This document shows, in pieces, positions 2,517-56,761 of a stretch of DNA of 64,000 nt (positions within the stretch are counted from its first letter, which is position 1; each line of letters begins with the position of its first letter). Below the pieces are notes generated by a model. That model saw only the letters and a list, made by a program, of their open reading frames with translations. It made no database searches and was not told the DNA's origin. The DNA comes from Chloroflexota bacterium (lineage in GTDB: Bacteria > Chloroflexota > Dehalococcoidia > Lucifugimonadales > SAR202-VII-2). The position numbers and the translations under genes were made by a program. The stretch lies in NCBI GenBank assembly GCA_003228115.1, contig QEVV01000001.1, positions 186,001 through 250,000 of the forward strand, in the 5' to 3' direction.

Positions 2517-3632
2517 CTAGCTTGCGGGGGCGGCCGCCCCTTCGCCGAAGAGCAACGTTTCTGGGTGGTAGTCCTTCCATGCAAACCAGAAGGAGTAGTT
2601 GCTGGGCAATTGTTGCAGCCTCTCACCGGCCAGCGGGCCCTCCAACGACTCCCCTGTAAGGCCGTCCCACAACGACGCGGTCTGCTCATCCCACATCCTA
2701 ACCTCACCGTGTTCAGGGTTCTCAATCTCTACGAAAGAAAGCTCTCTATCGTCGAGCCTGCGGCTGTACGTAGCGGCGAAATGGGTAAGGATGTCAAAAA
2801 CAATGAGGACTGGAATGTCTCCTGCCTGGTCGTTAAGGACGGGCTGAAAGGCCAACTCTTTGAATGGATAGGCCTTGGCCTCGCCTGCCATGAGAAGGCC
2901 AAGTACAAGGTCCTTCCTTCCAAGACGGTCGTCGGAGAAAGTCTCACCGATGATGCCCGGGGCGTTCGGGTCGTCATAGTAGCGGACGTAGGAGTCGAAA
3001 CGGAAACGCCCCGTACTGAGCAACAGAGTATCGGGGTGCACCTTCTTCCATGCGCCCCAGGTCGTCTGCACTGCGGGAATAAACTCCAGTTGCTGGCCCT
3101 TCAACTCGCCCTCAACGGCCTGGCCAAGAAAGTGGCTCCACAATGTGTCTGTCTGGTGGTCGTACATCACCAGAGCGTTCATGATGAGCTTGCCGGACAC
3201 TCCAAAGGTGAGTTCCCGTCCTGCGATATCCCGGGCATACACGATGCCCGAATAGCAGAGCGGTCACCAGGTCACCGCAACAGGCACACCTCCAACTACG
3301 TCGTTGACGATCTCATGACGGCTTAGGGTGGAAATTGGGTAGGCTCGGCTGTCCCCGTTAAGAGAAAGCGCAAGCACCAACTCATTATCCCGCAGATCTG
3401 TTCCTACCTCTTGGGCGGACACCAACGTTGGATCGAGGATTGCAGGTATGCCATCCTTGCTCAAGACCGTGACAATCCGATAGGTTCGGGGCTCCTCACC
3501 TGGCACTTCAACCGTTGTGCTGGTACGGAATAGCCCCGCTTGCCTGAGGAACGTTGGCCCAAACTGCCAAAAGCCTAGGGCAACAACGCCCAAGGCCGCA
3601 AAGTAGAGAAGTACTTTCACGACGGTAATCAC
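2517..3632 (-). CDS. DUF3179 protein, predicted selenoprotein (TGA read as Sec at residue 123)
   Basis: One gene interrupted by an in-frame TGA (3264-3266). The upstream part (122 codons from GTG at 3632) starts with a membrane anchor (VLLYFAALGVVALGFW) and ends GGVPVAVTW. The same frame resumes directly with PLCYSGIVYARD and ELTFGVSGKL. DUF3179 proteins carry the motif VTYCPLC at exactly this point, so TGA replaces the first Cys of CPLC and leaves UPLC. No frameshift is needed and the downstream domain is intact, including two similar segments, TTWGAWKKVHPDTL and SFWFAWKDYHPETL. A SECIS-like hairpin follows the TGA. Total length with Sec is 371 residues, as expected for the family. The biochemical function of DUF3179 is unknown; the CxxC suggests redox or metal binding outside the membrane. 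Alternatives are a recent nonsense mutation or a sequencing error. Confidence 0.82.
3230..3252 (-). promoter_or_regulatory. SECIS-like hairpin downstream of in-frame TGA
   Basis: On the minus strand, starting 14 nt after the TGA, a 7-bp perfect stem CGGGCAT/ATGCCCG closes a 5-nt loop CGTGT. Two G-U pairs can extend the base. The loop begins at nt 21 after TGA and has G at its second position. This fits the bacterial SECIS pattern as I know it: apical loop 16-37 nt from UGA, with a G in the first two loop bases. The hairpin lies inside the coding sequence, as in bacterial selenoprotein genes. Confidence 0.75.
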
Positions 3633-53390: not shown

Positions 53391-53641
53391 GGGCTGGCCT
53401 CAGTCAACCACCCTCCAATGTTGTTGGTGCCCCGAACCCCGCCAGTTTGCTTCGTTTGAGCACTCCTCGCGACGACATTGGAAGGACCTCGCCTAGGTTC
53501 GCGCCTTGCTAAGGCTACCCTCCCCTGAACCAAATACCCTCATTCTCCGCACCATTGCTAGAGGGAATCAACGGCTTCTGAAAACCAGTGCGCCCTTGGC
53601 TGCATCTTAGAAGGCGAACACTCAACAGGAGCCAGAAACAA
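53391..53641. other. Intergenic region with no recognised gene
   Basis: About 250 bases without conserved coding potential. The in-frame GTG at 53588 for the next gene lies here but lacks a ribosome site. Confidence 0.5.
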
Positions 53642-54253
53642 TTGCCCAAGAGACAGCGAGGAACAGATAAGGATCGTCAGCGACAGCGGAGACGTAGCAT
53701 TTGGTCGAGGCCGTGGGTGCTCTGGGGCGGCATTGGCATAGGCGTCGTAGCGCTGATAGCAGGAGTCATAACTCAATCGGTCATTACCTCCGGCAACATC
53801 ACCGATTTCAGGCTAGTGGCCTACGGAGGCCAAGACAAGTTAGGCGGAGACGATATCCTGTTCACCCAGGTGTTTGATCAGGGCAAGCCAGTGGTGCTCA
53901 ATTTCTGGGCCGGGTTGTGCCCCCCCTGCCGCGAGGAGATGCCCGGCTTCCAACGGGTCTCGGAAGAGTTCGCGGGCGAGTTCGTGCTCGTTGGGGTAGA
54001 TATTGGGCCCTTTGTGGGGCTAGGAAGCAGAGCTGACGCGAGAAACTTGATCGATACGCTGAGAATCACCTATCCGACAGCCTATGCTCCTAATGGTGGC
54101 GTCGTGCAGGACTACCTGGTGCAAAGCATGCCAACCACAATCTTTATGACACCAGACCAAAAAATATTCGAGCGGCATTCAGGGTTTCTGCCTGAATCAC
54201 AGATGCGGGCCAAGATTCAAAGACTCATAGCTGCGTCTTCAGAGCCTAGCTAG
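53642..54253 (+). CDS. Membrane-anchored TlpA/ResA-like thioredoxin
   Basis: About 203 residues from TTG 53642 (AGGAG 10 bases upstream); an in-frame GTG at 53588 would add 18 residues. A very basic N-terminus precedes one TM anchor (VLWGGIGIGVVALIAGVIT), so the catalytic domain faces outside. The active site is VLNFWAGLCPPCREEMPGF (CPPC), with VQDYLVQSMPTTIFMTPDQ supplying the cis-Pro loop. It probably receives electrons from the CcdA homologue two genes downstream and reduces cytochrome c apoproteins or other extracytoplasmic thiols. Confidence 0.88.
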   Translation: MPKRQRGTDKDRQRQRRRSIWSRPWVLWGGIGIGVVALIAGVITQSVITSGNITDFRLVAYGGQDKLGGDDILFTQVFDQGKPVVLNFWAGLCPPCREEMPGFQRVSEEFAGEFVLVGVDIGPFVGLGSRADARNLIDTLRITYPTAYAPNGGVVQDYLVQSMPTTIFMTPDQKIFERHSGFLPESQMRAKIQRLIAASSEPS

Positions 54254-54265
54254 AAAGGATTTCCT

Positions 54266-54505
54266 ATGAAGCGAGACCGCAACATTGAACATGTCCCTAC
54301 GGACAATCGCATTGGGAAAGCAGCAGACCAAAGAAGCTGGACAGGTGCCGTGGGGTGGGCTGCTTTGTTCGTGGCAGCGGGGGTCATCCTGAGCGCGGCG
54401 GTCAATCCTCTATTTGGACGGTCAGTCCACTGGGACTGGATGGCGGGCCTTGCGCCGGCCCTACTGTTGGGGCTTGCTTTATCTCTGCGACGAAGATGGA
54501 TCTAA
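54266..54505 (+). CDS. Small membrane protein, 79 aa, in thioredoxin-CcdA operon
   Basis: ATG 54266 after TAGAAAGGATTTCCT, 12 bases from the TlpA-like gene. Two hydrophobic helices, about residues 28-46 (VGWAALFVAAGVILSAAV) and 57-73 (MAGLAPALLLGLALSL), follow a polar N-terminus. No family recognised. Position suggests a structural or accessory role in the TlpA-CcdA system. Confidence 0.62.
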   Translation: MKRDRNIEHVPTDNRIGKAADQRSWTGAVGWAALFVAAGVILSAAVNPLFGRSVHWDWMAGLAPALLLGLALSLRRRWI

Positions 54506-54548
54506 GAGAACGCCCCTGAAGCGGCGCAGCTTTGTCAGGAGCATTACA

Positions 54549-55433
54549 ATGCAAACGATGGTAGACCAACGACGCCTCATACTTCCTATCGGGCTTTCCC
54601 TGGGGTTCCTGCTGGCCGCCTTTCTTGGCGCCCTAATAACAGGCGCCGAAGTGGGGGCAGTAACGGCGGGCGTTGAAAACCTTTCAGCAACATCAAGTAA
54701 CTTCCTGGGAGACGCAAGCACCATACTCCCCTTGGGCTTTGCCTTTGGAGCGGGCATGGTGGCATCGGTCAACCCATGCGGCTTCGCCATGTTGCCCGCC
54801 TATCTTGGCCTCTACCTAGGCGGCGAAGACGAACATGGCGTCCAACCGTCCACTCCTGCTCGAATAAAGAGGGGCCTGCTCATTGGCGGGGTTGTTACGG
54901 CCGGGTTCGTCGTTCTGTTTGGCATAGCCGGGATTGTCATCGGCGCTGGCGCTCAGTCGGTGGCTCGGTACTTTCCTTGGATAGGCCTGTCTATTGGGGT
55001 GGTCCTGGCATTCGGGGGAGGCTGGGTGCTCAGTGGACGTTCCATGTATAGCGGCATGGTGGAACGATTGTCAGCCCACAGTGGGGACCCACGCCAGCAA
55101 GGCGTCCGTGGCTACTTCGCATTCGGTCTTGGCTACGGCGTGGCTTCGCTTTCCTGCACGCTGCCCATCTTCCTGGCAGTCATCGGCAGCAGCTTCACCA
55201 CAGCTACGTTCCTGCAATCGGCCGGGCAATTCTTGATGTACGCCTTGGGTATGGGCTTGGTAATCATGATCCTAACCCTTGGCGTGGCCATCTTTCGGGG
55301 TGCCTTAGTGGGCAAGGTCCGAAGAATTTTTCCCTACATCCAGCCCATTAGTGCCGTGTTCCTGATCGTCGCGGGCGCCTACATCGTGTACTACTGGCTA
55401 ACATTGGGAGGGCTGATAGACTCGATCGTTTAA
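54549..55433 (+). CDS. CcdA-family thiol-disulfide transmembrane electron carrier
   Basis: 294 residues; ATG follows TCAGGAGCATTACA. About seven TM helices, with the two redox Cys in MVASVNPCGFAMLPAYLGLY (TM2 region) and YGVASLSCTLPIFLAVIG, the hallmark pair of CcdA/DsbD-beta. It passes electrons from cytoplasmic thioredoxin across the membrane to the TlpA-like protein encoded upstream. An N-terminal helix precedes the core. A hairpin overlaps its stop. Confidence 0.93.
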   Translation: MQTMVDQRRLILPIGLSLGFLLAAFLGALITGAEVGAVTAGVENLSATSSNFLGDASTILPLGFAFGAGMVASVNPCGFAMLPAYLGLYLGGEDEHGVQPSTPARIKRGLLIGGVVTAGFVVLFGIAGIVIGAGAQSVARYFPWIGLSIGVVLAFGGGWVLSGRSMYSGMVERLSAHSGDPRQQGVRGYFAFGLGYGVASLSCTLPIFLAVIGSSFTTATFLQSAGQFLMYALGMGLVIMILTLGVAIFRGALVGKVRRIFPYIQPISAVFLIVAGAYIVYYWLTLGGLIDSIV

Positions 55434-55473
55434 TCCTCCCCCACCCGAGTCCCTCGTAAGTGGGGAGGATTAA
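55430..55473. terminator. Hairpin after ccdA
   Basis: A 14-bp stem TTAATCCTCCCCAC/GTGGGGAGGATTAA with one bulged C and a 15-nt loop. The next 30 bases repeat GTGGGGGCTCCCCCA, another small dyad of the CCCTC/GAGGG repeat type. Confidence 0.6.
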
Positions 55474-55558
55474 GGTGGGGGCTCCCCCATCCCATCTCTT
55501 CCCCTCACTCGCCAGGAAACAGCCCCGCTGGAAAACGCCACAGGGCATTCCTCAAGGC

Positions 55559-55993
55559 CTAGCTTGTGGCCACTACAAGTTCTCTTATCACCGTTGGCCC
55601 TCCTTCCAGCGTTCTGCTCACAGGGCAGCGCCCTGCGATGGTGAGCAACCTCTCCCTTTGCTCTTCATCAAGATCTCCTCTAGCCGTGATGTTCAGGCGT
55701 ATCAAGGACACCTGAGCGCCTTCGTCTGGAGCATGACCCTCCAAATCGCCTGCCCTCACACGCTCCTGGGTAGCCTCAATCTCGACCTCGGCTAGTGGCC
55801 AGTCCTTGCGGTTCGCATACAGCTTCATCGTCATGCTGGTGCAAGCAGCCAACGCGCTCAGCAAAAGTTCATGGGGACTGGGGCCCAGTCCGTCTCCCAC
55901 ATCGGGCGGTTCATCTGAAACCAAAGTGTGACCAGATCCCGTCATGACAAGCTGGCGAACGTTTCGCATGCTTTCTAACTTGACTGAATTCAC
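55559..55993 (-). CDS. OsmC/Ohr-family peroxiredoxin-like protein
   Basis: 144 residues from GTG 55993 (AGGAGGAAC directly upstream). OsmC pattern: LGPSPHELLLSALAACTSMT with the first catalytic Cys and AGRCPVSRTLEGG with the second. These proteins reduce organic hydroperoxides with thiol help. A longer open frame to 56476 exists but is the antisense shadow of the divergent DsbA-like gene and lacks OsmC features. Divergently placed to the predicted selenoprotein at 56150, sharing a 156-bp promoter region, which suggests a common oxidative-stress or thiol role. Confidence 0.9.
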   Translation of the reverse strand: MNSVKLESMRNVRQLVMTGSGHTLVSDEPPDVGDGLGPSPHELLLSALAACTSMTMKLYANRKDWPLAEVEIEATQERVRAGDLEGHAPDEGAQVSLIRLNITARGDLDEEQRERLLTIAGRCPVSRTLEGGPTVIRELVVATS

Positions 55994-56149
55994 GTTCCTC
56001 CTACCAAACTCGAATCTCTTTGTTGAGGCTCCACTATACATTCGATGATCCAACTCAAACGATAATTCGTTTCCGGTAGCAAGCTCCCAGAGTTGCACGG
56101 TTAACCTTGAGAAGGTAGCCTGAACGGAGTCCGTCCAGGGAGGGGAACC

Positions 56150-56761
56150 ATGGACGTTGAACCAATAGATGTCGTAGTTTGGTATGACTACATATGACCC
56201 TGGTGCTACATCGGCCTGGAGCGGGTCGAACGTTTGCGCCAAGAGTACCCTATCAACCTCGACCTCAAGTCCTTCTTTCTGCGGCCGGACACGCCTCCAG
56301 AGGGCAGACCGAGGGCTGAAAACGAGCAAGAACCAACGTTGCCTGAGCCTCTCCGCACCCGCGCCTTGGAAGCGGGCTTGGACGCCATGCGAAGACCTCC
56401 CTTTGTCGCTGCATCCCGCAAGGCACATGAGGCCACTGAGTACGCAAAGGAGCAGGGCAAAGGGGTAGAATTTCACCGCGCCGTGTATGAGGCATACTGG
56501 GAACAGGGCCTGAACATAGGGGATTCCCAGGTCCTTGAGGGCCTTGCTAATGACACAGGTCTAGAATGGATTCCACTGAAGAGCCTCCTTGATGAGGGTT
56601 TCTACGGGAATAGCGTAGAGGAGCAGAATCACGAGATTACCAACTTCGGTGTTCACGGAGTTCCCTGCTTCCTCATCGACCGATTCTTGTTCACTGGGGC
56701 CCAACCTTATGAGTTCTTCAAACAGGTCGCAGACCGGGTTTTGGCAGAGCGGGCCCTCTAG
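56150..56761 (+). CDS. DsbA/FrnE-like thioredoxin-fold oxidoreductase, predicted selenoprotein (TGA read as Sec at residue 16)
   Basis: The ATG at 56150 has an excellent ribosome site, CAGGGAGGGGAACC. Reading gives MDVEPIDVVVWYDYI, then TGA (56195-56197), then PWCYIGLERVERLRQEYPIN and LKSFFLRPDTPPEG. FrnE/DsbA-family proteins have YDFICPWCYIG here, so TGA replaces the first Cys of the CPWC active site (UPWC). The rest is intact: helical insert, ITNFGVHGVPCFLIDRFLFT with the cis-Pro loop, 203 residues in total. Without recoding the conserved N-terminal strand and the active site would be lost. A SECIS-like hairpin follows the TGA. Probable cytoplasmic thiol/selenol oxidoreductase; no signal peptide. 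Alternatives: nonsense mutation or sequencing error. Confidence 0.85.
56211..56229 (+). promoter_or_regulatory. SECIS-like hairpin downstream of in-frame TGA
   Basis: Starting 14 nt after the TGA, TCGGCC pairs with GGTCGA-type sequence (one G-U, plus a terminal T-G), a 6-7-bp stem closing the loop GGAGC. The loop begins at nt 21 after the TGA, as in the DUF3179 gene, and has G at its first two positions, matching the bacterial SECIS pattern. Confidence 0.65.

Follow-up and report, generated by a model that had tools for sequence, protein, structure and literature searches.

Comparative evidence for selenocysteine in the active site of an FrnE/DsbA-family protein of a Chloroflexota bacterium

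The gene and its reading frame

The window (the whole stretch of 64,000 nucleotides analysed) carries a gene of the FrnE/DsbA family that is interrupted by one in-frame TGA (Table 1). An earlier note on this DNA, made from the letters alone, had claimed a strong ribosome site before an ATG, a TGA on the first Cys of a CPWC active site and an otherwise intact protein. All of these were found. The Shine-Dalgarno-like AGGGAGGGG lies upstream of the ATG, and the frame stays open to the TAG at 56759-56761, its only TGA standing in VVWYDYI-U-PWCYIG. When this TGA was translated as selenocysteine (Sec, U), the product began with MDVEPIDVVVWYDYI-U-PWCYIGLERV... and reached 203 aa. With translation table 11, the longest downstream ORF was one of 175 aa that starts at TTG 56234, so that 28 residues are lost from the N-terminus and the active site with them, as the note had said of a reading of TGA as stop. 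Genes of this kind are thus shortened when TGA is taken as a stop.

Table 1. Features of the selenoprotein gene and their positions in the window
Feature	Position	Strand	Details and basis
FrnE/DsbA-family selenoprotein gene	56150..56761	+	203 aa + TAG; TGA as Sec at residue 16
Shine-Dalgarno-like AGGGAGGGG	56137..56145	+	ends 4 nt before ATG; sequence
In-frame TGA, first position of the U-P-W-C motif	56195..56197	+	translation; homologue column
TGC codon of Cys19, resolving Cys of UPWC	56204..56206	+	translation; alignment
SECIS hairpin	56211..56229	+	stem 56211-56217/56223-56229; loop GGAGC 56218-56222; near-invariant G 56219
Codon of invariant Pro172 (GVP), expected cis-Pro of the thioredoxin fold	56663..56665	+	alignment; cis form inferred from family

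Family and active-site residues

A profile search of the protein matched Pfam DSBA (PF01323) at 8.3e-34 over residues 8-192, and the nearest solved proteins by phmmer were the Deinococcus FrnE structures 5cnw and 5cp1 (5e-18), in line with the DsbA/FrnE-like assignment of the note. The SCO1869 structure 3gl5 was matched at 2e-13. U16 aligns with the first Cys of CPWC in these proteins, and D13, U/C16, P17, C19 and P172 were invariant in 41 aligned rows. The trait of the FrnE subfamily, CP(W/F)C with an opposing conserved Pro, is present with Sec replacing the first Cys. C19 and C173 are the only Cys residues of the protein, no signal peptide was seen in it, and a search of its 203 aa for the C-terminal CX4C found none. 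Since some other FrnE proteins also have no CX4C, for some of which a different regeneration has been suggested (PMC8945050), this motif does not define the family. None of the NCBIfam selenoprotein models names the protein, and the sole matches were far below their cut-offs. Identity with the Rcas_1661 thioredoxin-like (seleno)lipoprotein (NF041057), a selenoprotein model of a lipoprotein family, was rejected, as its weak C-terminal match scored 41.4 bits against a curated cut-off of 190 bits.

The Sec/Cys column in homologues

Homologues were collected from 393 genomes of the class at a threshold of 1e-25, taking the best match per genome. A homologue was present in 125 genomes, 96 with one TGA and 29 with no stop in the best match, a genome-wide split that is based on the stop count; the position of the TGA was confirmed by codon in the fetched loci. 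Within the order (59 genomes), nearly all of the nearest homologues carry exactly one TGA. Sec forms were found elsewhere in the phylum too; the named relatives are Chloroflexi MAGs, and the single Armatimonadetes relative carries Cys. The aligned column was readable in 94 fetched loci, with TGA in 69 and a Cys codon in 25 (17 TGC and 8 TGT). Three weak, distant matches among them (L048-L050) were excluded from subsequent tests.

These counts bear on the possibility that the TGA is a true stop, or a Cys codon that was misread, and that only an N-terminally truncated product is made from TTG 56234. The 175-aa ORF, which is all that table 11 yields, agrees with such a broken gene or read error. 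However, a TGA occupies the same aligned position in 69 of the 94 loci, and the frame is intact on both sides of it; as nearly all of these loci come from independent assemblies, a misread Cys codon at 56195 is excluded. Selection on the hairpin downstream, described below, also speaks against a broken gene, and we regard this explanation as highly improbable.

The SECIS hairpin

The hairpin with loop GGAGC claimed after the TGA is present. Its pairing was evaluated by redrawing the codons around it among synonyms in each gene (1000 draws) and counting six core pairs. The 65 distinct TGA genes averaged 5.45 core pairs. Their redrawn versions averaged 4.03 (sd 0.11, z 13), and none of the 1000 draws exceeded a mean of 4.38; all six pairs were formed in 44 of the TGA genes against 4.5 expected. 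The 23 Cys genes, in contrast, showed no excess (3.96 against 3.85 expected, z 0.6), and the loop G at 56219 was present in 64/65 TGA genes versus 11/23 Cys genes. In an alignment of 24 rows, 89.9% of the cells were paired versus 83.5% in shuffles, the covariation score was 0.195 versus 0.091 (0/500 shuffles as high), and the given register of the hairpin was the best-paired one. The stem is rebuilt with other letters in L037 (CGGGGC-GGCCA-GCCUCG) and L114 (CGGCAAG-GGA-CUUGUCG), and in L112 it is shifted (GGUGUCC/GGACACC).

By itself, the hairpin of the window is within chance (fold z = -1.4; 10% of synonymous recodings pair as much), and its significance appears only across the homologues. 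An Rfam search at the hairpin gave no match; such silence is unsurprising at bacterial SECIS elements. Judged by the 65 TGA genes, the hairpin is a real SECIS element, and this comparison, together with that of the TGA column, argues for Sec coding. Measuring pairing against synonymous recoding in TGA and Cys homologues offers clean sequence-based support for bacterial SECIS elements.

Gene neighbourhood

A cluster of redox genes occupies 53588-56761 of the window, in the order ResA/TlpA-like, DsbD_TM-like, OsmC-like and the Sec gene; it is not conserved in relatives. The DsbD_TM-like (CcdA-like) neighbour is just below the Pfam cut-off, and the OsmC-like one, on the minus strand, is a Cys form. 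None of the six neighbour genes recurs within 1.5 kb in the 93 other loci.

The UGA could alternatively serve mainly as a selenium-dependent switch, which would make the gene a selenium sensor giving the full-length protein with selenium and a 15-residue abort without it. Selenium-dependent output is in principle a property of any UGA-Sec gene, and this counts for the idea. The lack of a conserved operon at these loci counts against it, and a switch adds nothing that is required beyond ordinary Sec decoding. We give it a very small probability, and ordinary insertion of Sec is preferred.

Sec machinery and the genetic code

Profile searches of the genome (2.78 Mb, 92% complete) detected selA (564 bits), selB (362 bits) and selD (386 bits), and a tRNA-Sec with the anticodon TCA (read as UCA) was also found. 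The absence of Sec machinery, which the note had named as a ground for giving up its reading, therefore does not apply. The selD of this genome (L009, G000:C7:30580-31503) is a selenoprotein gene too, with an in-frame TGA of its own in ...HCAG-U-ASKFS....

From the window alone one might suspect that TGA has been generally reassigned as a sense codon, for it is the most frequent of the three triplets there and yet closes just 3 of the 50 long ORFs. This is the least probable of the alternatives and next to negligible, since TGA still terminates ~20% of long ORFs (47/232) in a 304-kb sample of the genome, prfB is present and the sole tRNA-Trp in the window has the anticodon CCA. In the sampled genome outside the window, TGA ends 44/182 long ORFs, and TAG is the commonest stop. 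As TGA still serves as a stop and prfB is present, the code is standard apart from Sec.

The Sec machinery, the TGA column, the SECIS element and the FrnE homology agree with one another and with the note's reading of a Sec-active-site thiol oxidoreductase. On this sequence evidence, the UGA in the active site is almost certainly read as selenocysteine.

Co-occurrence with selB and evolutionary history

selB was found in 84 of the 96 genomes with the TGA form, in 10 of the 29 with the no-stop form and in 166 of the 268 remaining genomes. The difference between the two forms was significant (Fisher p = 6e-8), with the significance overstated because the genomes were taken as independent. The 12 TGA-form genomes that have no selB at the cut-off may reflect assembly gaps.

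With the Sec column masked, the unrooted tree inferred for 88 proteins requires a minimum of 10 changes of the Sec/Cys label, 7 of them forced by well-supported branches, as compared with 20 when labels were shuffled. Sec and Cys have thus been swapped repeatedly, with the direction of the swaps depending on where the root of the tree is placed. We tentatively raise the possibility, which we hold to be somewhat less than even, that FrnE in this phylum originally carried Sec and that Sec and Cys have since replaced each other many times, which would make the family a natural experiment on the payoff of selenium in a cytoplasmic disulfide reductase. The many switches at one column provide matched pairs for biochemistry.

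Proposed function and relation to known proteins

The gene very probably encodes a cytoplasmic FrnE-type disulfide oxidoreductase of the DsbA family, whose exposed catalytic residue would be Sec16, inserted through SelB and the hairpin. SelB with Sec-tRNA(UCA) would bind the hairpin, which lies 14-32 nt downstream of the UGA, and direct Sec to residue 16. The Sec selenolate would then attack disulfides of substrates (or oxidised substrates), Cys19 would resolve the selenenylsulfide, and an electron donor, probably thioredoxin-like, would regenerate the enzyme.

Its family suggests that the enzyme catalyses this reaction, resides in the cytoplasm and acts in redox or metal stress, as does FrnE of Deinococcus radiodurans. 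The latter works in the cytoplasm as a disulfide reductase/isomerase, and its mutant shows sensitivity to cadmium and diamide (PMC8945050). That protein (DR_0659; 5cnw, 5cp1) is a whole-length homologue with the CPWC motif, and it differs from the protein here in having Cys in place of Sec and a C-terminal CX4C as the regenerating pair. Because CX4C is absent here, regeneration would have to differ from that in D. radiodurans. Streptomyces SCO1869 (3gl5) belongs to the same DsbA/FrnE family and is by annotation a Cys protein (putative DsbA oxidoreductase) and not a selenoprotein.

The family is not new, and selenium forms of DsbA-like proteins have already been described. COG2761, to which one of them was assigned, is presumably the FrnE group. 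As the note had stated, Sec variants occur in DsbA-like families: a DsbA-like UxxC selenoprotein classed as COG2761 was reported from Sargasso Sea data in 2005 (PMC1088965), and 'DsbA 1' (PF01323, UxxC), with 63 sequences in GOS and commoner in marine samples, in 2008 (PMC2398784). A 2026 review lists the family as 'DsbA-like form 1' (PMC13188914). These proteins share with the present one the Pfam domain, UxxC at the first active-site Cys and a downstream bacterial SECIS element. The published forms, to which the likeness is by description, are mainly metagenome fragments, whereas whole genes in genomes with Sec machinery are presented here. What is added is a well-supported member, its spread across the phylum and the SECIS evidence.

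Other candidates

L117 (G000:C1:507229-507807), a paralogue of the DsbA family encoded in this genome, has SPFA in place of CxxC and is therefore probably not a disulfide enzyme. The distant DsbA-like homologue L050 (G008:C16:772-1248) reads DFR-U-PYV and so has a UxxV motif; a UxxV selenoprotein, 'DsbA 3', is listed in GOS (PMC2398784). Another selenoprotein candidate in the window, the second besides the gene described here, is a DUF3179 protein (PF11376, 2.5e-87 on readthrough; the term DUF3179 occurs in two selenoprotein reviews). It lies at 2520-3575 on the minus strand, with a TGA at 3264-3266 in the motif VAVTW-U-PLC and a hairpin after it.
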